Assembly: GCF_009601505.1 (NCBI RefSeq)
Contig: NZ_WITC01000124.1
Location: 62,001-126,000, forward strand
Length of the DNA stretch: 64,000 bases
Origin: Sinorhizobium terangae
GTDB taxonomy: Bacteria; Pseudomonadota; Alphaproteobacteria; Rhizobiales; Rhizobiaceae
Direction of reading: 5' to 3'
The notes beneath the pieces are model-generated. The model did no database searches and was not told the DNA's origin. It was given only the letters and a program-made list of their open reading frames with translations. Positions 3,330 to 57,748 of this stretch are shown piece after piece (within the stretch, counting starts at the first letter, position 1; each line of letters begins with the position of its first letter). Both the position numbers and the translations under genes were made by a program.

Positions 3330-4382
3330 TCAGCCGCCGGGCGGATAGGCGTGCTCGTTTCCGCGGAAATCGGTGATGGTGTAGCAGCCGCCCCCTTCCG
3401 CAGCGATCGTGCTTGCGCTGATGACGGCCTTGCCGTGACCGCCGGGGATGTCGAGGATATAGGTCGGCTGGCAGAGGCCGGAAACGCGGCCGCGAAGCGC
3501 GGCGACGAGTTTCTGTCCCTCCTCGATCGACAACCGGAAATGGCCGGTGCCGGGCGCGAGATCGGGGTGATGCAGGTAATAGGGCTTGATCCGTGTTTCG
3601 ACGAAGGCGCGCATCAGTTCCGCAAGCACGTTCGCATCGTCGTTGACGCCCTTGAGCAGCACCGACTGGCTGACCATGACGATGCCCGCGTCGATGAGGC
3701 GGGCCGAAGCGGCGCGCGCCTCGGGCGTCAGCTCGCGCGGGTGGTTAGCATGAAGTGCCACATAGGTCGCCTTGCCGCTCGCCTTCAACGCCGCGATAAG
3801 GGCCGCATCGACGCGCTCCGGTTCGACGACGGGCACGCGTGTGTGGAAGCGGACGATCTTGAGATGCTCGATCGCGCCGAGCCGCTCCATGATTTCGCCG
3901 AGCCGGCGGGGCGAAAGAACCAGCGGATCGCCGCCGGTGAGGATCACTTCCCAGATTTCCGAATGGTGCGCAATGTAAGCGATCGCGGCGTCGAGCTCGG
4001 CAGGCGTCAACGTGCCGAGCCCCTGCGGCCCGACCATTTCGCGACGGAAACAGAAGCGGCAATAGACGGGGCACACATGCACCGCCTTGAGCAGCACGCG
4101 GTCGGGATAGCGGTGGACGATCCCGGTAACCGGGCTGTGCGAACCGTCGCCAATCGGATCGGCGCGCTCTTCCGGCGTGAGCGTCAGCTCGGCCGCGTTC
4201 GGCACGAATTGCCGGGCGATCGGGTCGTCCTGGTCCTGGCGGTCGATGAGATCCGCAATGGCCGGGCTGATCGAAACGGCATAGCGCGACGCCACGCGGA
4301 AAACCGCCTCCTCGTCCGTCGGCGCGACAAGACCGGCATCGACGAGCTCGCGCGCCGTTCTGATGGAGCGCTGTGCAGTCAT
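3330..4382 (-). CDS. epmB: EF-P beta-lysylation radical SAM enzyme (lysine 2,3-aminomutase family)
   Basis: 350 residues from the ATG that overlaps the epmA stop codon (ATGA, 4379-4382); a longer in-frame start exists but is less likely. Radical SAM cluster ligands are Cys104, Cys108 and Cys111 (CPVYCRFC), followed by the family's GGDPL segment. It lacks the long extensions of fermentative lysine 2,3-aminomutase. EpmB makes (R)-beta-lysine, which EpmA attaches to elongation factor P. Both epmA and efp are adjacent, so this assignment is strong. Translation is probably coupled to epmA. Confidence 0.92.
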   Translation of the reverse strand: MTAQRSIRTARELVDAGLVAPTDEEAVFRVASRYAVSISPAIADLIDRQDQDDPIARQFVPNAAELTLTPEERADPIGDGSHSPVTGIVHRYPDRVLLKAVHVCPVYCRFCFRREMVGPQGLGTLTPAELDAAIAYIAHHSEIWEVILTGGDPLVLSPRRLGEIMERLGAIEHLKIVRFHTRVPVVEPERVDAALIAALKASGKATYVALHANHPRELTPEARAASARLIDAGIVMVSQSVLLKGVNDDANVLAELMRAFVETRIKPYYLHHPDLAPGTGHFRLSIEEGQKLVAALRGRVSGLCQPTYILDIPGGHGKAVISASTIAAEGGGCYTITDFRGNEHAYPPGG

Positions 4383-11551: not shown

Positions 11552-11617
11552 GGCCCCGCAGCATGTTCTCCCCGAGTCGGAGCCGATTAAACCCATTCAG
11601 CAATTCCACGTGCTCCA

Positions 11618-11691
11618 GCGATCTTTGCGCGTCTCTTAAGACGCGCGGCGTTGTAAAGCGCGTCGCGTGAGTCCGATTGAACGCGACGCGC
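11618..11691. repeat. Intergenic palindromic repeat, two hairpins
   Basis: First hairpin GCGCGTCT-ctta-AGACGCGC (11627-11646), with the flanks TCTTT and GGCGTTGTAA of the module found at 24103, 34560 and 43987. Directly after it is a second, perfect 11-bp palindrome, GCGCGTCGCGT at 11658-11668 pairing with 11681-11691. Confidence 0.75.
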
Positions 11692-22949: not shown

Positions 22950-23048
22950 CTACAGCGCCGCGCGTGTTATGAGACGCGCAAAAGACGCTGTAGTACTTTG
23001 CTGCATGTTTTGATCCTTAAATCGGCTACGATTTAAGGAAACATGCAG
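22950..23048 (-). repeat. Two-module composite intergenic repeat, reverse copy
   Basis: Module 2 is an 8-bp outer stem CTACAGCG/CGCTGTAG (22950-22957 and 22986-22993) around a GCGCGT/ACGCGC inner stem. Module 1 is CCTTAAATCG (23015-23024) with CGATTTAAGG (23029-23038), enclosed by CTGCATG/CATGCAG. The same two modules occur in opposite orientation at 43927-44030. In the rest of this 342-bp gap (23049-23278) I see only the leader of the SDR gene. Confidence 0.85.
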
Positions 23049-23278
23049 TAGCGCCGGCCGCCAACGATCATGCAGCCTTCCTGTTCGCCGGTGTCGTTGC
23101 GGGCTTTGCGGTAACCCCCCCGCGATCCTGTCGGACCGCGTTTGTTCCGGGCACTGCGTAGATGCGTTCCTCACGTCGACTATCCGGTGAAACCGGCGCT
23201 CTCGCGGCCTCGGGAATCGGGTGGCCGCCTCGCGCCGGATCTGCGACTCCTTCGTCGCTATCGAGAAAGGAATCCGTG

Positions 23279-24049: not shown

Positions 24050-24102
24050 TCTTGCAATCACCGAGCGCATGGTCACAGTGCGGTCTCGCAGCAATCAGAG
24101 CG

Positions 24103-24146
24103 CAACAGCATCCTTTGCGCGTCCGGTTGGACGCGCGGCGCTGTAG
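24103..24146 (+). repeat. Palindromic repeat, module 2 only
   Basis: ACAGCATCCTTT, then GCGCGTCC-ggtt-GGACGCGC, then GGCGCTGTAG. It matches the second module of the composite element. It ends at the Shine-Dalgarno sequence GGGAGG (24146-24151) of the next gene. Confidence 0.8.
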
Positions 24147-34498: not shown

Positions 34499-34600
34499 AG
34501 CATCCCGCTTTCAAGTGGAATCACTGAAAGCGGATAAGATGCTCTAGAATCAAAGTGCTAGAGCGTGCTTTGTGCGTTCATTTGAACGCACGGCGCTCTT
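34498..34600 (+). repeat. Composite two-module repeat, variant family
   Basis: Module 1: GAGCATC/GATGCTC outer stem (34498-34504, 34538-34544) around CCGCTTTCA/TGAAAGCGG (34505-34513, 34525-34533). The linker AATCAAAGTGCTA follows. Module 2: AGAGCG/CGCTCT around GTGCGTTC-attt-GAACGCAC (34572-34591). Same order and linker as at 43927 but with different stem bases that still pair. Confidence 0.8.
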
Positions 34601-43865: not shown

Positions 43866-43926
43866 CTACTTGCTCCCTCATGAAACGCGGGGTCAGATGA
43901 TCCCCCACGGGGTAGCATCCTGTCTA

Positions 43927-44030
43927 CTGCATGATTCCTTAAATCGGAATCGATTTAAGGATAAAATCACGCAGCAAATCAAAGTGCTACAGCGACCTTT
44001 GCGCGTCCGATTGGACGCGCGGCGCTGTAG
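43927..44030 (+). repeat. Two-module composite intergenic repeat, forward copy
   Basis: Module 1: CTGCATGATT/AATCACGCAG around CCTTAAATCG-gaat-CGATTTAAGG (43937-43960). Linker CAAATCAAAGTG. Module 2: CTACAGCG/CGCTGTAG around GCGCGTCC-gatt-GGACGCGC (44001-44020). It is the reverse-orientation twin of 22950-23048. It lies at the 3' end of guaA and accounts for the rest of the 454-bp gap with the pseudogene. Confidence 0.87.
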
Positions 44031-48926: not shown

Positions 48927-49912
48927 AGCCACCCTCTCTGTTTGAAATAGAGATAGGGCAACAGCGCCGAAAGCACCATCATGCCGAGAGCATAGGGATA
49001 GCCGAGGTCCCAGAACAGTTCCGGCATCGACTGAAAGTTCATGCCGTAGATCGAGGCGACCAGCGTCGGCGGCAGGAACACGACCGCTGCCACCGAGAAG
49101 ATCTTGATGATCTGGTTCTGTTCGAGATTGATGAGGCCGAGCGTCGCGTCGAGCAGGAAATTGATCTTGTTCGACAGGAACAGCGCGTGATCGCCGAGCG
49201 AGGTTGCGTCGCGCTGGATCAGCTTGATCCGCTGCCGGCTCTCCTTGGCTGCCTTGCGCTGTCCGTTGCCCTCGATCGCCACGTGGTAGGCGACGAGCCT
49301 GCCGACGCTCACCAGACTTTCACGAATGATCGTCAAGAGGTCACCCTTCTGGCCGATCTGCTCGATCAGCGACTGCAGGTTGCGCGTCTTCTTGGTGGCG
49401 TTGGCGTGCGACTTACGGAAAACTTCGCGCGAAATCGCATCGACCTCGTTGCCGGCGCGCTCCAGCGCATCCGCCGTGCGGTCGATCATCGCCTCGAGAA
49501 GCCCCAGCATCACCAGTTCCCCGGTTTCGCACGCCGCCCCGTTCGGCCTCTGGATGCGGGTCGCATAGACCTGGAACGGCTTCGGATCGGCGTGGCGCAC
49601 CGTGACGAGACTCGGTCCCTTGAGAATGAACGTCACCGGCACTTTTGCCGGATTGTCGCTGTCGATTTTCGCCACGGCGGTCATCGTCATGAACTCGGCG
49701 CCGTCCTCCTGGTAGAGGCGGTCGGAAAGCTCGATTTCCTGCATCTCGTCCCGTGTCGGGATGGCGATCGCCAGCCTCTCTTCGACCAGCCGGGTTTCCT
49801 CGGCGGAAGGACTGAAGAGGTCGAACCAGATCACCGGTACCTGGGATGCCAGGCCGTTGAGGAGGTCGACGGGCGCGAGATGGTTGTTCTGGCCTTTGTA
49901 GATGCGCAGCAT
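48923..49912 (-). CDS. corA: CorA-family divalent metal ion transporter
   Basis: 329 residues from the ATG at 49912, which has GGAG 7 bases upstream; ATGs at 49924 and 49936 are also in frame. A large cytosolic alpha/beta domain and long stalk helix (1-265) precede two C-terminal transmembrane helices. The signature YGMNF lies between them (about residue 290). The protein takes up magnesium or another divalent ion as a pentamer. It sits between the di-heme/imelysin genes and DUF1513 of the iron run and overlaps DUF1513 by 4 bp. Whether it moves iron-related metals here is unknown. Confidence 0.93.
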   Translation of the reverse strand: MLRIYKGQNNHLAPVDLLNGLASQVPVIWFDLFSPSAEETRLVEERLAIAIPTRDEMQEIELSDRLYQEDGAEFMTMTAVAKIDSDNPAKVPVTFILKGPSLVTVRHADPKPFQVYATRIQRPNGAACETGELVMLGLLEAMIDRTADALERAGNEVDAISREVFRKSHANATKKTRNLQSLIEQIGQKGDLLTIIRESLVSVGRLVAYHVAIEGNGQRKAAKESRQRIKLIQRDATSLGDHALFLSNKINFLLDATLGLINLEQNQIIKIFSVAAVVFLPPTLVASIYGMNFQSMPELFWDLGYPYALGMMVLSALLPYLYFKQRGWL

Positions 49913-50143
49913 TTGGGGCTCCATGGGGCGAGTCATCCGACCGCCCGGAGCCCTGATCAATCAGGATCGGACGGCCGTGAGCGTGAAGGCTCGACTTCGA
50001 CTGTCGGGGTTCATTCCGGTTGATCCTTGCTAGGTGAAACATGCCCGCGACAGCGGACACGACTTGCGCTTTGCGCCCAAAAGAGCGGCTTGTCAACCGC
50101 TGGCCGGCGGGGCCCCTTCACGTTGCCGTGTCAACGTGCAATG

Positions 50144-51271
50144 TCAATCGCCGTCGGCAAAGGAAAAGCCGGCGCCAAGGCCGATGGCGCCCCCGAATTC
50201 GCGATTGAAGCGATCGAGGAGATCAGCGGTGTTGAGCGCGATGAAGTCGAGCGTGGCACGCTGGTTCTCGTCCGCAAGCGCCGCGTCGATCGGTCCCTCG
50301 ATGCGGTCCGCGGCGCGGATCAGCGCCTTGAAGAGGAAATTGATCGAACCGGCGATCGAGCGGCTGTCGGCTGGAAGCAGGCTCTCCATGCCGGCCGTAT
50401 CGAAGAGCATCTGCAGGGCCCGCAGATTCGCGGAAATGGCGGCCATCGTATTGACTGAGCGCCAGTAGATGGCGAGCCTTGGACGGCCCTTGTCGGGCTT
50501 TCCATCGAGCGTGCCGGTGTAAAAGGGCCGCAGCCGCTGGTCCTTCACCATCTCGACGCTGTGGACGAGAATGCCGAGGAGCTCGGTTGCGGCCTCCCTG
50601 CTGTCGCGGAAGAGCGGATTGTCGGGACCGGGCTTCTTCCAGGCGGCCTGGATTCCATCCGGCCTTTCCCATTCGGTGAGGAGCTCGCCCGCGATCGCCT
50701 TCAGGTTCTCCGATATCGCGACGCCGTAACGGCAGCGAAAGGCGCCGTCCTTCCCGGCAAGCGTTTCTGCCCCGGTGCCGTAGAGTACGTATTCGAGCGC
50801 GCCGAGGCCTTGGACAGCGACGCTTTTTTTCTTGAGGCTTTCTACCTGCGTTGCGCTTTCGTCTTCTTTCGCAAGAATCGCCTGTACCTGCTTGAGGCCG
50901 GTGCTCTTGCGGTCGGGATAAAACAGGAAGCGCTCGAAGCGGTTCTGTTCGAGGGCCGGGCCGAGGCGGATGATCTCGATCGCCGACCATCTCCGCACGA
51001 CGCCCGAAAAGGCCGAGCGGGCAGCCTCGAGCGCCGCTGCCGAGGGCGCCTCGCAAAGCGCGGCGCTCGTTTCCGCAAGGCCGACCGTCGCTTCCGCGAG
51101 ACCGCGATAGCCGGGGATGATGAAGCCGTCCACGGCTTTTGCCATGACGCCCGGCACGGCGGCCTCGTCGACGACGCGCGGCGACAGCGCTCCACCTTCT
51201 TGCGCGGCCGTCGGGATGGCGGTGGCCGCAAACAGGAGGACGGCCAGTGTTAGGGGAAGGCTCGGGCGCAT
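50144..51271 (-). CDS. Imelysin-family (M75) periplasmic protein, second copy
   Basis: 375 residues with a signal peptide (1-23, PTAAQ-E). It shares the all-helical imelysin fold with the gene at 53169, for example GLGALEYVLYGTGAETLAG, which replaces the GxHxxE motif with Gly-Leu-Gly-Ala-Leu-Glu: the His is lost and the Glu kept. The ATG overlaps the di-heme gene stop by one base (TGATG). This family, also called iron-regulated protein A or EfeO-like, is linked to periplasmic iron handling rather than proven proteolysis. It is the third gene of the leftward run. Confidence 0.88.
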   Translation of the reverse strand: MRPSLPLTLAVLLFAATAIPTAAQEGGALSPRVVDEAAVPGVMAKAVDGFIIPGYRGLAEATVGLAETSAALCEAPSAAALEAARSAFSGVVRRWSAIEIIRLGPALEQNRFERFLFYPDRKSTGLKQVQAILAKEDESATQVESLKKKSVAVQGLGALEYVLYGTGAETLAGKDGAFRCRYGVAISENLKAIAGELLTEWERPDGIQAAWKKPGPDNPLFRDSREAATELLGILVHSVEMVKDQRLRPFYTGTLDGKPDKGRPRLAIYWRSVNTMAAISANLRALQMLFDTAGMESLLPADSRSIAGSINFLFKALIRAADRIEGPIDAALADENQRATLDFIALNTADLLDRFNREFGGAIGLGAGFSFADGD

Positions 51272-53121
51272 CAGAGTGACTCCAGGAATGTGATCAGGGC
51301 TTTTCGGTCGTCCTTCGGCAGGGCGGCAAAGGCGTTGCGAGCCTTTTCCGCCTCACCGCCGTGCCAAAGGACGGCCTCGGTAAGGTTACGGGCGCGGCCA
51401 TCGTGAAGGAAGAAGGTGTGGCCGCTGACGGTTTGCGTCAGTCCGATCCCCCAGAGCGGCGGCGTGCGCCACTCTCGGCCATTGGCGACGCCGACTTGTT
51501 GGCCGTCTGCGAGACCTTCACCCATGTCGTGCAGCAGGAAATCCGAATAGGGCCAGATCAACTGGAACGCCTGCTCCTTGTGCGATGCATCGCGCCGGGT
51601 CACGAATTTCGGCGCATGGCAGGCCACGCAGCCGGATTCGTAGAAGAGCTGCTTGCCCCTCAAGGTTTCCGGAAAGCTTGCCTTTCGGCGGGCGGGCACG
51701 GCCAGGTTGGAGGCGTAGAAGGTGACCAGCCCAAGCACCGGATCGGGTGCTTCGACGGGGCCGAGCCGTTCCTGAACGCCGGTCGGAAGCGCCTGGCAGC
51801 CGGTCTGCGCCTCGGTGCAATCGCCATGGCTGCGATCGTTGTCGGGGTTGGATATGCCGATGTCGATGGCGAAGGCGTCGGCGGCTTGTTGTCGGAGCGT
51901 CGGGCTTTGGGCCTTCCAGCCGAAGCGGCCAAGCGTTACGGTTCCGGTTTTGGCATCGCGGACCAGCGCGGGCCGCCCGCTGATGCCGTCCCCGTCGCGG
52001 TCCTCCGGATCTGCGCGCGCGAAAATGTCGGCCTCGTGGATCGCCTCGATCAGGCCGAGACCGATCATCGGGGAGGCGACGCGCGGCGAAAGCGTCGTTG
52101 TCGGATCGAGCGGGCCATAGCCGAGGCCGGCGACCGTGTAATGCGGCTTCCGCAGAAAAGCCGTCTCGCCGTCCGCAAGCCTCACCTGCTCTTCCGTATA
52201 CGTGATCGCTACGCGCCCTTCGGCTGCAAGCCCCGGCACGGCACTGTCCTGGAGTTGCGCACCGTAAACAGGATCGGGAAAATTGAGCGCGGCATGGGCG
52301 GCGACCATCTCCCGTTCGGCGTCATCGCGCGGCGCACGCGCAAAGCGATAGAACATCGATGTTGAGTCGGACGCGCCTACCGGCGGTCGGCCGCGTCCGT
52401 CGCGGAGATGACAGCTCTCGCAGGAGCGGGCGTTGTAGAGCGGGCCGAGCCCGTCGGAGGCTTGCGTGGAGGAGGGCGCCGAAACCCAGAGCTTCTCGAA
52501 GAGCGCCTTGCCGAGCTTGAAGTTCTGCTCGGCCTCGAAGGGAAGGTTCGCCGAAAACTGGGAGAAGACTTGCCGGTCGACCGGCGCGATTGTCGTCGCG
52601 GCGCCGGCGGAAAGGGCCTCGAACTGTTCGGCCTTGAAGAAATCCGTCGTTGGTCGGGTGACGGTCAGCACGCGTTCGCGGTCGTGCTCGGAAAGGTCCT
52701 GGCGTGCAGGGCGAGGCGAGGTTTGGTTGTCTGCGACCTGTCCGGCGCTGCACCCCCCTCTGCCCTGCCGGGCATCTCCCCCACAAGGGGGGAGATCGGC
52801 AGGGGGCGATGCCCCGCTCAAGCTATTAACCTGCGCATACGCCGTTGAATTCTGCGCGTGTGCCTTTGAACGCAATTCCGACCTCTGCGCGGTTATTACC
52901 GGGCAAGGCTTTGCTTCCGGCCAATCTCCCCCCTTGTGGGGGAGATGCCCGGCAGCGCAGAGGGGGGTATCGACGCCGCCTATCCCGATTTCAGCCTTTG
53001 GTATCCCTTGGGGTTCCGCTTTGACGACGAGGCCGGGACCGTCGCCCGTCGCCGCTGCTGTTGCGGTGATGCTGATGAGCGCGGCGATGGGCAGCCCGAA
53101 GAGGCGGGAGGTCACATGCAT
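51271..53121 (-). CDS. Di-heme c-type cytochrome oxidoreductase (DUF1111) with in-frame repeat insertion
   Basis: 616 residues from the ATG at 53121. A signal-like N-terminus (1-25) is followed by a repeat-derived stretch (about 52-123, see 52753-52967). The conserved part starts near DFFKAEQFEALSAGAAT. Two CxxCH heme sites are present: CESCH and CVACH. Other family motifs are LPTGVQERLG and HTFFLHDGRARNLTEAVLWHGGEAE. DUF1111 proteins are periplasmic, often between imelysin genes, and may oxidise ferrous iron for uptake or dispose of electrons. The gene lies 47 bp behind imelysin 1 and overlaps imelysin 2 by one base. Confidence 0.9.
   Translation of the reverse strand: MHVTSRLFGLPIAALISITATAAATGDGPGLVVKAEPQGIPKAEIGIGGVDTPLCAAGHLPHKGGDWPEAKPCPVITAQRSELRSKAHAQNSTAYAQVNSLSGASPPADLPPCGGDARQGRGGCSAGQVADNQTSPRPARQDLSEHDRERVLTVTRPTTDFFKAEQFEALSAGAATTIAPVDRQVFSQFSANLPFEAEQNFKLGKALFEKLWVSAPSSTQASDGLGPLYNARSCESCHLRDGRGRPPVGASDSTSMFYRFARAPRDDAEREMVAAHAALNFPDPVYGAQLQDSAVPGLAAEGRVAITYTEEQVRLADGETAFLRKPHYTVAGLGYGPLDPTTTLSPRVASPMIGLGLIEAIHEADIFARADPEDRDGDGISGRPALVRDAKTGTVTLGRFGWKAQSPTLRQQAADAFAIDIGISNPDNDRSHGDCTEAQTGCQALPTGVQERLGPVEAPDPVLGLVTFYASNLAVPARRKASFPETLRGKQLFYESGCVACHAPKFVTRRDASHKEQAFQLIWPYSDFLLHDMGEGLADGQQVGVANGREWRTPPLWGIGLTQTVSGHTFFLHDGRARNLTEAVLWHGGEAEKARNAFAALPKDDRKALITFLESL
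52753..52967. repeat. RIME-type inverted repeat inside the di-heme gene
   Basis: The left end reads CCCCCCTCTGCCCTGCCGGG then CATCTCCCCCACAAGGGGGG. The right end carries the same about 44 bases in reverse orientation with few differences. They enclose about 115 bases, and the whole is open in the di-heme frame (residues about 52-123). Confidence 0.85.
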
Positions 53122-53168
53122 TGGACTTGGGCCGGGCCGCACCTTTTCGGAGCGGCCCGCCTTTCGGC

Positions 53169-54449
53169 TCATTGGAAGACGGCGCTAGGATTATCCAGGC
53201 TGTCGGAACCTTCAAGCTCGATCGTGCCGAGATCGAGCGAGGCGATGACGCGTTCGACGGTCTTCGCCTGTGCGATCAGGCCGTCGATCGCGGCCTGGAC
53301 GGTGGCGTTACCCTCCGCATTGCCTTCGCCGATCATCTGGTCATAGGCCTCGACCGTTTCGGCGCGCTTAGCCATCGCCTGCATCTTTTCGACCGTGGCG
53401 GCAAGGTTGTCCTTCAGTTCCTTGTCCAGCGCCGCATCCTTCGCGGCAACGAGTTCGGAAATCGAGGGACCGGTGAGCTTCGTGCCGTCGACACGGGTAT
53501 ATTCGCCGGTATAGGCGGACTGGATGCCGATCGCGTCATGGAGATGCGAGTTGTGCGTGTTGTCCGAGAAGCAATCGTGCTCTTCTTCCGGATCATGCAG
53601 CAGCAGGCCGAGCTTCATGCGCTCGCCCGCGAGTTCCCCGTAGGAAAGCGAGCCTATGCCGGTGAGGATGGTGGCGAGGCCGGCCTTGGGATCGGCCTCC
53701 ACCGCCTTGGTGGCGGCGCCATCCGGCGTCCAGTTGGCGACCATTTCCTTGAGGTCGGAAACGAGCAGACTGGTGGCTGCCTTCAGGTAGGCGGCTCGGC
53801 GATCGCAGTTGCCGTTCGTGCAGGCCTTGGTATCGAAGTCGGTATAGGAGCGGTTGCCGGCGCCGGGGCCTGTGCCGTTCAGGTCCTGTCCCCAGAGCAG
53901 GAATTCGATCGCATGGTAGCCGGTCGCAACGTTCGCCTCGATGCCGCCTGCTTCCTGCAGCGTCCCGGACAGGAATTCCGGCGTGATGTTCGTCGCGTCG
54001 ACGTCATTGCCGTCGATCTTGATCGACTTGTTGGCGATCACATTGGCAACGAAAAGAGCGTTCTCGTCGCTTTCGGTGCCATAGCTCTGGTCGACATAGT
54101 CGATCAGACCTTCGTCGAGCGGCCAGGCGTTCACCTTGCCTTCCCACTCATCGACGATCGCGTTGCCGAAACGATAGACCTCGGTTTCCTGATAGGGGTT
54201 GCGCGCCTTGAGCCAGGCGTCACGCGCGGCCTTCAAGGTCTCTTCGCTCGGGCTTGCGATCAGCGCGTCAACCGCCTTGTCGAGGGCTTCGGCCGTCGTC
54301 AGGGCATCTTCGTATTTGGCGTGTGCAACGGCAGCATAGTGCTTGACCACCTGAGCGGCGTCGGTGGCGGCATTCGCCGGTTGCAAAGCCAGCGTAGACG
54401 TTGCCGTCATGAGCGCCAGCGCGGCGGCGCGGATGCAATTCTTGGTCAT
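53169..54449 (-). CDS. Imelysin-family (M75) iron-regulated periplasmic protein
   Basis: 426 residues. Signal peptide about 1-27 (QPANA-A). The family's GxHxxE motif is GYHAIEFLLWGQDLN (about residue 175), in a helical bundle with a duplicated half. A Cys-rich insertion (CTNGNC) and the HNSHLHDAIGIQSAYTGEY segment are typical of the IrpA/ICMP group. The family was first described as insulin-cleaving, but gene context points to iron uptake. It is first in the leftward run to the di-heme cytochrome and second imelysin. An Irr-box-like half site and a TTGACA lie upstream. Confidence 0.92.
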   Translation of the reverse strand: MTKNCIRAAALALMTATSTLALQPANAATDAAQVVKHYAAVAHAKYEDALTTAEALDKAVDALIASPSEETLKAARDAWLKARNPYQETEVYRFGNAIVDEWEGKVNAWPLDEGLIDYVDQSYGTESDENALFVANVIANKSIKIDGNDVDATNITPEFLSGTLQEAGGIEANVATGYHAIEFLLWGQDLNGTGPGAGNRSYTDFDTKACTNGNCDRRAAYLKAATSLLVSDLKEMVANWTPDGAATKAVEADPKAGLATILTGIGSLSYGELAGERMKLGLLLHDPEEEHDCFSDNTHNSHLHDAIGIQSAYTGEYTRVDGTKLTGPSISELVAAKDAALDKELKDNLAATVEKMQAMAKRAETVEAYDQMIGEGNAEGNATVQAAIDGLIAQAKTVERVIASLDLGTIELEGSDSLDNPSAVFQ

Positions 54450-54511
54450 GACCCTCTCCTTGGCTTGTTCCAGGGCCGAGCAGACGCCTCGAGACCCGTT
54501 GAAGCGGCTTT

Positions 54512-54566
54512 GTCATGGACCAAAAGTAAACTTGTGTCAAAGTGTATAGTTTAGAATATTTTCAAT
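54512..54566 (-). promoter_or_regulatory. Candidate iron-regulated promoter of the imelysin run
   Basis: On the minus strand TTGACA (54540-54535) is a good -35 hexamer, though the -10 17 bases on (CATGAC) is poor. Just upstream at 54550-54566 lies TTTAGAATATTTTCAAT (plus strand): one perfect half of the TTTAGAA-N3-TTCTAAA iron control element, with the other half degenerate. Confidence 0.35.
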
Positions 54567-54610
54567 CTTTTCCCGGCGCGGCGGCCGAAATGCCGGCCTG
54601 TTATCGGGCT

Positions 54611-55900
54611 TTAGCTCCTTCGGCCCATAAGGCAGAAGAAAAACCCATCCGTGCCGGTCGAGGCGGGTGTCAGCGTGACCGTCTTCATGTCGGCGGACCA
54701 CGGCTGCGGTTTGTCGGTACCGAAGAGTGCCGCCCATGTGTCGGCGGCCGAGAGGATCTCGAATTCCGGATTGTCCTCGCAGAAACCGTAGACCTGCGAC
54801 TCGTTCTCCTCGGGAAGCACCGAGCACGTCACGTAGATCAGATGTCCGCCCGGCCGGACGAAGTGGGCGGCGCTCGCCAGCGCTTCCTCCTGCTGGGCCA
54901 GCCTCTCCTCCAGGTTTTTCTGCGTGAGCCGCCATTTTGTGTCCGGGCGGCGGCGCCACGTGCCGGTCCCGGTGCAGGGCGCATCCACAAGCACGCGATC
55001 GAAGCGCCCGGCAAGCGGCGCCAGGGATTCCGCCGATTCATGCACCTGCACGTTGCGCGTGCCGGCGCGCTTCAGCCGCTCGATGATCGGCGCCAGCCGC
55101 TTGCGATCGGTGTCGTAGGCGTGGACCTGGCCCTTGTTGTTCATCGCTGCCGACATGGCGAGTGTCTTGCCGCCGCCACCGGCGCAGTAGTCGAGCACCT
55201 GCTCGCCCTCCTGCGGGAAAACGAGGTCGGCGACGATCTGCGAGCCTTCGTCCTGAACTTCGAACCAGCCCTTCTGGAACGAGATCTCCGCTGTAACGTT
55301 CGGAAGGCGCGAGGCGCCTTCACCGGCCGGGATGCGCACCCCGTGGCGCGCGATCGTCGCCGGTTCGGCGCCGCTGCGCTCGAGCGCCTTCAACACCTTG
55401 TCGCGGTTCGCCTTCAGCGTATTGACGCGCAGGTCCAGCGTTGGCCGGCCGGCAAGCGCCTGGGCCTCCTCGAGCCAGTGGTCGGAGAAGTTTTCCTCGA
55501 AAGAGGCCTGCGTCCATTCCGGAATATCTGCCTGCACATGCTTGGGCGCGTCTTCTAGCCGACGCTTGGCAAAGGCGTTCATCATTTCCGCTGAAGGCGC
55601 CTCAGGCGCGAACTTGTCGTCGGCGAGCTCCGCGGCAAGCGTCTCGGGGGAAAAGCCCCATTGCCGATACATGACCGCGTGACCAAGCGCCGCGGCGCTG
55701 TCGCTGTCCATCAGGTAGGCGTGCGACAGTTTCATCCGCAGCGCGTCATAGACGATGTTGCCGATGGCGGCACGGTCGCCCGATCCGGCGAAGCGGTGCG
55801 AAAGACCCCAGTCCTTGAGCGCGTCGGCGACGGGACGCTTCCGTTTCTCTATGTCGTCAAGAACCTCGATGGCTCCGGCGAGCCTTCCGCCCAATCGCAT
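54611..55900 (-). CDS. RsmB/NOP-family rRNA (cytosine-5) methyltransferase
   Basis: 429 residues from the ATG at 55900; the frame runs on upstream but without homologous sequence. The SAM motif reads VLDYCAGGGGKTLAMSAAM. The two catalytic cysteines of the m5C family are seen in DAPCTGTGTWRRRP and YVTCSVLPEEN. A C-terminal FFFCLMGRR strand closes the fold. The N-terminal region (1-130) is a helical NusB-like domain. It probably methylates 16S rRNA (RsmB type), but a tRNA substrate cannot be excluded. Confidence 0.92.
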   Translation of the reverse strand: MRLGGRLAGAIEVLDDIEKRKRPVADALKDWGLSHRFAGSGDRAAIGNIVYDALRMKLSHAYLMDSDSAAALGHAVMYRQWGFSPETLAAELADDKFAPEAPSAEMMNAFAKRRLEDAPKHVQADIPEWTQASFEENFSDHWLEEAQALAGRPTLDLRVNTLKANRDKVLKALERSGAEPATIARHGVRIPAGEGASRLPNVTAEISFQKGWFEVQDEGSQIVADLVFPQEGEQVLDYCAGGGGKTLAMSAAMNNKGQVHAYDTDRKRLAPIIERLKRAGTRNVQVHESAESLAPLAGRFDRVLVDAPCTGTGTWRRRPDTKWRLTQKNLEERLAQQEEALASAAHFVRPGGHLIYVTCSVLPEENESQVYGFCEDNPEFEILSAADTWAALFGTDKPQPWSADMKTVTLTPASTGTDGFFFCLMGRRS

Positions 55901-56037
55901 CTTCGATGAACTCCTTTTTCGCCGTGGTAACGGCGATGACACCGAAGAGCAAGACGGATGCGGTATAAATGCGAGAGACCCGCAGTCTCCATAAACAAAT
56001 CTGCCCGGAGCGATAATCGGGCGGAAGTATTGGCGTA

Positions 56038-56412
56038 TCAGGAATTGATGACCTGGTAACAGATGCTGGCGGTTCCCGAGCGGATCATGCCGATTTGCGA
56101 GGCGGCCGCCTTCGACAGATCGAGCACGCGGCCGCGAATGAATGGACCGCGATCGTTGATGCGGACGACGACCGTCTTGCCGTTGCGCTTGTTGGTGACT
56201 GCGACCTTCGTGCCGAATTTGAGGCTGCGGTGGGCGGCGGTGAGCCGCGCGGCGTTCATTCTTTCGCCGGACGCGGTCTTGGAGGTCAGCGCGTACCAGG
56301 ATGCACCGCCGCAAGCGGACCCTGCTGCCTGACTATCGGATGCCGAGACCAACCCCATCCCGACGGTGAATAGCACTGCTGCGGCAGCAGTTTTAATGTT
56401 CGCTGGTTTCAA
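56038..56412 (-). CDS. RlpA-like double-psi beta-barrel protein
   Basis: 124 residues. Signal peptide about 1-29 (SQAA-G). The barrel begins [42 protein letters not shown] and keeps [24 protein letters not shown], the RlpA signature with its catalytic-like Asp. It lacks the SPOR domain and lipobox of full RlpA, so it is the short form common in rhizobia. RlpA proteins act on naked peptidoglycan glycan at the septum. A 460-bp intergenic region lies upstream. Confidence 0.92.
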
Positions 56413-56872
56413 GCGACGACCCCCACGGTTTGAAAGTTTAGTTAATTTCCCTGCTGATCGACGTAATTGAGGCGAAAAATGGCAAAACCGTGCTTCAACC
56501 GTTAACTGTCTATTAGGTATTCTTGAAAAGCAGTGGAAATTTAAAATGGGAGATTGTTTGAATTATTTTAAATCGTGGTGCGAAGTTCCTAGGAATCAGG
56601 GGTTAGACGTCGAACGCGACGCAAGGCAGAGTGCAGGCTCCCCGCGTTCGAAAAAAAACATTTAAAATTTCGATTCGCATGAATTTCCATGAATCCCGTT
56701 CGTGGAAATCCGCTAACTAGCGCGTAGGTTGTGCGATTGGGCGAAGTATAGGCCAAATATGGGCAAGCGTTAGGCAGTCAAACGAAAGTCGAGTTCACTG
56801 TTACTATCGGATGATCTGAAGACATGCTTTCATCCGAACGGATTATTCTGGATACGCGAATTGTGGGGGAGT
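56413..56872. other. 460-bp AT-richer intergenic region
   Basis: No plausible coding frame on either strand. It is clearly less GC-rich than its surroundings (56660-56720 holds A8 and ATTTAAAATTT). It must contain the rlpA promoter. Apart from the stem-loop at 56683-56709 I see no recognisable repeat of the families found elsewhere. Confidence 0.6.
56683..56709. other. 11-bp stem-loop in the rlpA upstream region
   Basis: ATTTCCATGAA-tcccg-TTCGTGGAAAT forms an 11-bp stem with one T-G wobble and a 5-base loop. No T-run follows, so it is not a standard terminator. It could be a protein site or part of a small RNA. Confidence 0.45.
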
Positions 56873-57748
56873 CTACTTGCCGCGCCAGGCGCCGGATTGC
56901 CACAACTGTGCAAGCGACACGCGATAGTTCGGGAAGGCGAATTGGAAGCCAGCCTCGCGAAGGCGTGCATTCGAGACGCGCTTGTTCTCGCCATAGAAGG
57001 AGCGCGCCATTGGCGATAGTTCGGCGGTCTCGAAGGGAATTTCCGGTGGCGGCTCGACGCCCATGAGCCGGGCGGCTTCCGCGACCACGTCCTGCGGCGC
57101 GGCCGGCTCATCGTCGGTGACGTTGAAGACTCCACCCATGCCACGGTTGGCGAGAAAGGCGGCAGCCGATCCGATGTCTTCGACACGAATGCGGTTGAAG
57201 ACCTGGTTTGGCTTCACTAGCCGGCGTGCCGTGCCTTCGGCGAGATTGCGAAAGGCATTGCGCCCCGGACCGTAGATGCCGGCAAGGCGCAGGATCGCGA
57301 CGGGAATGCGCTGCTGCGCACCGTAGTGAAGCCAGGCATCCTCAGCCTCGACCCGCTCGACCGAACGCTGGGAAACCGGCTTGTAGGGCGTTTCCTCCGT
57401 CACCCAGGCGCCCTTGTGGTCGCCATAGACGCCGACGGTGGAAAGATAGCCGATCCAGCGAAGGTTCGGCAAAAGCTCGGGCAACGGCTGGACGCCGGCG
57501 CGGAACATCGGGTCGCCGTCGCGCCCCGGGGCAATTGACTGGATGAGGTGGGTTGCCTGGCGCATAGCGTCCGCGAGCTCGGCGGATATCGCCGTTCCAT
57601 CGTAAAGGAGGGGGCGAATCCCGGCTTGTGCGAGTTCGGAGAGCCTTTCGGGCGAACGAGTTGTGCCGGTCACGGACTGGGCGGCAGGCGCCAGCGCTTT
57701 CGCGATCGCCGTGCCGGAATAGCCGGCGCCAAGAATCAGGACATGCAT
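56873..57748 (-). CDS. NAD-dependent epimerase/dehydratase-family (extended SDR) protein
   Basis: 291 residues from the ATG at 57748. The Rossmann motif is [32 protein letters not shown] gives the Ser-Thr-Tyr active region, but the usual YxxxK is not obvious, as in the YeeZ-like group. [14 protein letters not shown] and [10 protein letters not shown] are typical extended SDR features. It overlaps the queG stop region by 13 bp, so translation may be coupled. The substrate is unknown. Confidence 0.87.

Follow-up and report, generated by a model that had tools for sequence, protein, structure and literature searches.

Palindromic repeats that lie in frame within genes are best known from Rickettsia, for which the primary accounts are reportedly those of Ogata in 2000 and 2002. 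The RIME repeats of rhizobia, reportedly described by Osteras in 1995, have a palindromic anatomy. In the available sections of the papers cited here, the Rickettsia palindromic elements (RPEs) are described as repeats of about 150 bp that lie in frame within various unrelated protein genes, at sites seemingly tolerant of extra residues (PMC10969869, PMC3733652), and the RIMEs as Rhizobium-specific intergenic mosaic elements, that is, as intergenic repeats (PMC2573895, PMC2245857). The same sections characterize REPs as palindromes of 20-40 bp, with GTAG and CGTC families, that occur within the ORFs of several species (PMC3733652), and the enterobacterial RU/ERIC sequences as MITE-like repeats with open frames fused to genes (PMC2759123).

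The window analyzed here is a stretch of 64,000 nucleotides from Sinorhizobium terangae. On its minus strand, which also carries the genes and element parts given below, a palindromic repeat element of 215 nt (52753-52967) lies in frame within a gene for a di-haem oxidoreductase and putative peroxidase (DHOR; 51271-53121). As far as the RPEs are characterized in the sections cited, the family of this element resembles them in lying in frame in unrelated genes, which in the window's own genome are DHOR, cobN (two elements), and ftsY (two elements). The likeness concerns the way of working. The family differs from the RPEs in that it inhabits a rhizobium whose genome is large, in that copies are also found outside genes, and in that the arms are conserved regardless of codon position across the genus.

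With the RIMEs the element shares an inverted-repeat anatomy and membership of a dispersed, multi-copy repeat family of a rhizobial genome. However, the DHOR copy is inside a gene, and so we call it RIME-like rather than a RIME; at least one other copy of the family is intergenic. The RIME-type identity given in the original prediction is plausible by anatomy and host rather than by RIME1 or RIME2 sequence. Over the 12 kb surrounding pckA in each of two genomes (G000 and G015), no copy was found at the two-component genes beside pckA, taken by eye to be chvI/chvG, and the sole copy in these stretches lies between hisF and coaA in the window's own genome. The shorter pckA loci of three other genomes (G006, G014, and G022) contained no copy. 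Like REPs, the DHOR element is a palindromic repeat within an ORF, but REPs measure 20-40 bp, and the 42-nt arm core of the present family, the part compared, contains neither GTAG nor CGTC. The element has the terminal inverted repeats of a MITE and, like RU/ERIC as they appear in the available part of PMC2759123, combines a MITE-like repeat with an open frame fused to a host gene; the hosts are unrelated, and that part of the paper mentions no test of age or of codon positions.

No description of rhizobial palindromic repeats in frame within genes was found in the open-licence literature, a scope outside which most subscription papers fall. As far as that literature was searched, the new points are the host group, the age of the insertion, the occurrence of the family in cobN and ftsY as well, and the evidence from codon positions against a constraint on the peptide. 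A genus with large genomes has in-frame palindromes in at least three conserved genes, and 33 genomes allow their age to be read. The role of dispersed palindromic repeats for their hosts becomes directly testable, with filled, half-deleted, and empty orthologous sites as natural controls.

The locus as a whole is very probably best explained by a single old in-frame insertion whose peptide is under no detectable selection and whose arms are held as nucleic acid. A dispersed palindromic repeat of the Rhizobiaceae, MITE-like and possibly a RIME, would have entered the DHOR linker once, before the split of the sampled Sinorhizobium species, and would have been in frame ever since. The element would be translated, exported, and tolerated at unstructured linkers, and its arms would be kept nearly fixed by constraint on, or homogenization of, the nucleic acid wherever the family sits.

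Anatomy of the element and of the DHOR gene

The complete palindromic repeat of the original prediction was recovered both by an inverted-repeat search and by RNA folding. It consists of a gene-distal arm of 45 nt (52753-52797), a loop of 121 nt (52798-52918) that diverges fast among full copies, and a gene-proximal arm of 49 nt (52919-52967) to which the distal arm is complementary. Both arms are conserved. Ends of about 44 bp had been proposed; they are indeed nearly complementary, but they are longer than that, because beyond the 49 and 45 nt that are conserved, an extended inverted repeat (52752-52813 and 52907-52968) has arms of 62 nt that are 89% complementary with 93 nt between them. 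Each arm accommodates two small hairpins, which can be drawn by eye in the gene-proximal arm. The first is of the type TGCCC-TGCC-GGGCA, broken here by one substitution, and the second is ATCTCCCCC-ACAAG-GGGGGAGAT. The predicted RNA fold of 52740-52980 has an energy of -177.9 kcal/mol compared with -105.1 (S.D. 5.2) for 200 shuffled sequences (z = -13.9), none of which folded as well.

The ORF is open through the element (51271-53172, 633 amino acids). Residues 189-633 match the Pfam DHOR family PF06537 with an E-value of 1.8e-96, which places the domain at 51274-52608, and a signal-peptide-like N-terminal stretch, MHVTSRLFGLPIAALISITATAAA, was read by eye at 53050-53121. This stretch is alike, as read by eye, in DHOR orthologues with and without the element. 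The element lies between the signal peptide and the heme domain, at about residues 69-141, and the prediction that it adds some 72 residues in frame at this position is borne out. As 215 is not divisible by 3, flanking bases share in the reading frame.

Judging from the orthologues, translation of DHOR most likely begins with the Met at 53121. This Met is in the same open frame as DHOR in 31 of the 33 Sinorhizobium genomes; the alternative in-frame ATG, at 53172, lacks such conservation, several orthologues having another codon there. The conserved Met, with its signal peptide, is upstream of the element, and translation from a start downstream of the element, a possibility raised with the original prediction, is rejected on that ground. 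The two genomes without the Met in the same frame (L030 and L074) are both frameshifted. In L030 (genome G008) the frameshift is between the signal peptide and the element, where one C is apparently missing from a run of six at the element edge. In L074 (G021) the frame changes within the heme domain, and either a real mutation or a sequencing error is possible.

Two genes for imelysin-type proteins (Peptidase_M75 by Pfam) flank DHOR, the imelysin gene upstream at 53169-54449 and the second gene downstream at 50144-51271. The ATG of the downstream gene overlaps the DHOR stop codon. The stretch separating the imelysin stop codon from the conserved start of DHOR (53121-53172) contains a GC-rich stem-loop, seen by eye, of the form GGGCCGC...GCGGCCC. 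The stem-loop is similar in some orthologues and could be an attenuator or a processing site. A search of 49000-57000 detected no known RNA family, the one sub-threshold match being to mir-326 at 51303-51379 (26.3 bits compared with a gathering threshold of 66). No solved structure related to the DHOR protein was found at an E-value of 0.001, and the AlphaFold model of the protein, with a mean pLDDT of 37.6, is too poor to use.

Distribution and age at the DHOR site

A DHOR orthologue is present in all 33 Sinorhizobium genomes. The element at the DHOR site is full in 20 of them, partly deleted in 4 (L018, L033, L038, and L074), and absent in 9 (L023, L031, L032, L034-L037, L072, and L073), with a few outer bases left in L023 and L032. 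Arms were sought only within the open frame running into the DHOR domain, and the 13 genomes lacking a full copy were read by eye. In L038 (G001) the element retains its outer ends, but its inside has been swapped for a different short palindrome, still in frame.

The insertion had been predicted to be recent, on the grounds that the ends are nearly identical as in an element that has just arrived. The 89% complementarity of the arms over 62 nt fits such an arrival. However, orthologue alignment shows that the same site is filled, fully or partly, in 24 of the 33 genomes. The loops are alike across both main branches of Sinorhizobium, and loop changes amount to 2.8-3.5 per site at every codon position compared with 2.7 at third positions of the domain. 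A recent arrival is therefore barely credible; on the alignment, recency is refuted unless all copies at the DHOR site are independent insertions. With the insertion present in 24 of 33 genomes, it is conservation of the arms, and not age, that accounts for the nearly identical ends.

In a tree of 48 DHOR rows, full copies are found on both main branches of Sinorhizobium. The tree omits L103, which shares a contig with L012, and L171, in which the motif was not found, and in it L119 carries the label "none." DHOR loops from the two main branches have a similarity of 0.927 per base (99 pairs), compared with a mean of 0.508 between DHOR loops and 29 dispersed loops and of 0.346 for shuffled loops. 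The nearest dispersed loops reach up to 0.82 on average against the DHOR loops, so the likeness of the loops is partly a subfamily trait. The simplest history would be one insertion before the sampled Sinorhizobium species split, followed by repeated loss. The branch that joins the meliloti-type species with the other element-bearing species has a support of only 89/82, which leaves it uncertain how many gains and losses took place, and the element may have passed between Sinorhizobium species by transfer.

The DHOR gene was found in 124 of the 199 family genomes searched. Outside the genus, none of the matches listed starts before residue 139, the element being at about residues 69-141; this family-wide protein search would miss an element in another frame, as is the case in L119. 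Among 80 named loci, this one, from Rhizobium sp. Root482, carries a member of the family at the corresponding DHOR junction, in another reading frame. The matches of its tree neighbors begin past the element position, and the L119 insertion is apparently independent. The recurrence suggests that the junction between the DHOR signal peptide and heme domain may be a permissive landing place.

Reading frame and codon positions

The frame used contains no stop codon in any of the 20 full copies, compared with stops in 20, 13, 18, 3, and 12 of the 20 in the other five frames. At the DNA level, the evidence for maintenance of the frame is the length of the loops, which range from 94 to 124 nt with seven different values and equal 1 modulo 3 in all 20 copies. 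At least 11 changes in insert length were counted on the tree by parsimony, in codon units, which cannot reveal frame-breaking changes.

Changes at codon positions 1, 2, and 3 were counted by parsimony over the 20 DHOR rows, L119 being left out as a member of another genus. They number 17, 21, and 23 in the arms (34 codons), 92, 98, and 115 in the loop (33 codons), and 388, 272, and 1268 in the heme domain (475 codons); the pattern of the arms differs from that of the domain with p = 3e-6. Diversity at four-fold sites is 0.045 in the arms (19 sites) compared with 0.369 in the heme domain (200 sites). Domain sites as low as the arms were obtained in none of 20,000 random draws of 19 sites and in none of 182 consecutive windows of the domain, for which the minimum was 0.279.

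The near-absence of codon periodicity in arms and loop indicates that the peptide is not detectably selected. As the arms change hardly more at third codon positions, their coding sequence is held by something other than the protein. A frame that is kept, a peptide without detectable selection, and arms that are nearly invariant together imply that the arms are constrained or homogenized as nucleic acid.

It is very unlikely that the insert is a functional peptide or a cytochrome domain kept for such a role, for example by virtue of its four cysteines. The maintained frame and the arm-encoded cysteines, which are mostly conserved, would be expected of such a peptide, but the lack of codon periodicity in arms and loop would not. 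The insert is moreover missing, wholly or partly, in 13 of the 33 genomes; in cobN, ftsY, and the Root482 gene the arms are read, in whole or in part, in different peptide frames; and no Pfam or NCBIfam family matches within the insert, where a true domain might have been expected had the prediction of an inserted repeat been wrong. The preferred reading is of a peptide under no detectable selection that is probably translated and exported. The exported protein apparently tolerates the linker, as predicted, presumably because the host sites, judged by sequence comparison, are unstructured linkers.

Other copies of the family and conservation of the arms

In the window's own genome (7.08 Mb), 105 pieces match the element. 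This count includes the element itself and both strands of the palindromic arms, so that pieces exceed copies, and 40 of the 55 first-look candidates were scored. Of 33 places fetched, 28 yielded further members of the family, in all 31 elements or pieces, of which 21 have both arms. The copy number is a lower bound, since several copies are at contig ends and not every candidate was scored. In two further ORFs of this genome, named by eye, the frame runs without a stop through an element close to the N terminus, one ORF being like penicillin-binding protein 1C (L046:3032-3277) and one like a lytic transglycosylase (L056:3012-3175); in both, the true start may be downstream.

The cobN gene of the same genome (TIGR02257) carries two in-frame elements (L042:2065-2277 and 3955-4224, contig C95) in a frame that differs from that used in DHOR. 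In the 30 of 33 Sinorhizobium genomes in which cobN was read, site 1 contains an element in 16 and site 2 in 16, some of these being truncated, and remnants are found elsewhere. The four-fold diversity of the cobN arms is 0.118, 0.054, 0.049, and 0.015 compared with 0.352 for 652 sites of the gene, and the arms exceed the remainder of cobN in change at codon positions 1 and 2. One comparison of filled with empty cobN sites (L196 and L199 with L211) suggests GTAC or TA, a candidate target-site duplication, at both ends of the element, but this sequence merges with the inverted repeat.

The ftsY gene (TIGR00064) of this genome has two in-frame elements and a third arm in the N-terminal linker (L054:2820-3469 and 3534-3573, contig C49). 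Arms are present in the FtsY linker in all 29 genomes read (29 of 30 loci fetched, L236 being excluded); 26 of these genomes have at least two distal arms, and 27 have one or more proximal arms. The four-fold diversity of the ftsY arms is 0.308 (4 sites only), 0.177, 0.094, and 0.131 compared with 0.304, so that one arm, that with 4 sites, shows no excess conservation. Because the frames differ wholly or partly, the peptides differ between the host genes. FtsY itself was matched in 120 family genomes. Outside the genus, arm matches with up to 11 mismatches were found in 8 of 28 loci fetched, and both arms at no more than 5 mismatches in L301, L306, and L312.

We offer the following generalization tentatively, as quite possible. 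Protein genes of the Rhizobiaceae may host conserved non-coding elements, here a palindromic repeat held by selection on the nucleic acid, as a binding site or a hairpin, even where it is translated. Peptide linkers would then be by-products of a DNA or RNA function, and the acidic linker of FtsY in Sinorhizobium would be largely two such elements.

One intergenic copy was followed across genomes. In G027 and G028 the locus is conserved at 79-80% identity, with the arms kept. Mismatches of its two arms to the 42-nt core are 3 and 2 in the window's own genome, 0 and 1 in G028, 5 and 0 in G016, and 1 and 12 in G027, in which the second arm is gapped.

Pairing within the arms was examined at core positions 9 and 18. 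The 51 arms of the window's own genome, including 8 at the cobN and ftsY loci, have C:G in 35, G:C in 11, T:A in 3, and a mixed combination in 2; among the cobN orthologues, 60 of 62 arms are paired (C:G or T:A) and 2 are mixed. The two positions change together, which supports pairing, in DNA or in RNA. In the pairing table the first small hairpin of the ftsY gene-proximal arm is one base out of register, and its cells were partly skipped. Wobble changes show no clear strand preference, with 50 sense and 40 antisense G-U cells over all sets (cells and not events), and thus do not favor RNA over DNA.

The arms might be kept as an RNA hairpin that sets the stability or processing of the imelysin-DHOR-imelysin mRNA. 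We consider this unlikely. The very stable predicted fold and the joint change of positions 9 and 18, in the genome's own arms and in cobN, are what such a hairpin would produce; DNA hairpins, however, explain the pairing equally well, and the G-U asymmetry is not clear. The 40 DHOR arms themselves show a single double change that preserves pairing. In addition, the intergenic copy and the copies in genes of unrelated function are similarly conserved.

Alternatively, gene conversion with the other copies of the genome could keep the DHOR arms alike without selection. The many copies per genome, the similarity of arms between loci, and a conservation that is independent of codon position are all consistent with conversion, which we nonetheless regard as the less favored, if possible, explanation. 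Positions 9 and 18 are C:G in all 20 proximal and in 19 of 20 distal DHOR arms (39 of 40), the exception being the distal arm of L015, in which a 3-nt gap is misplaced by ungapped matching and the mismatches are inflated; yet among the 43 arms of the window's own genome that lie elsewhere than in cobN and ftsY, 11 are G:C. The T:A type, common among cobN orthologues, is likewise confined in the window's own genome to the cobN and ftsY loci (3 arms). The DHOR arms compared across 20 genomes are no more diverse (π = 0.043 and 0.072) than are 27 arms of the same type from a single genome (0.074). Were conversion to act only between the arms within an element, it would not alone slow divergence between species. 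Like-type donors could be preferred, so these arguments are not decisive. With moderate confidence, we favor selection on the nucleic acid of the arms, as a DNA site or a hairpin, over conversion.

The window also contains copies or pieces of another repeat family, of about 105 bp with two palindromes, at 43925-44030, 22950-23050, 24090-24146, 11599-11655, and 34550-34597. This repeat, which we take to resemble the AB palindromes of S. meliloti, is very abundant in the genus, with 463-631 first-look candidates per genome.
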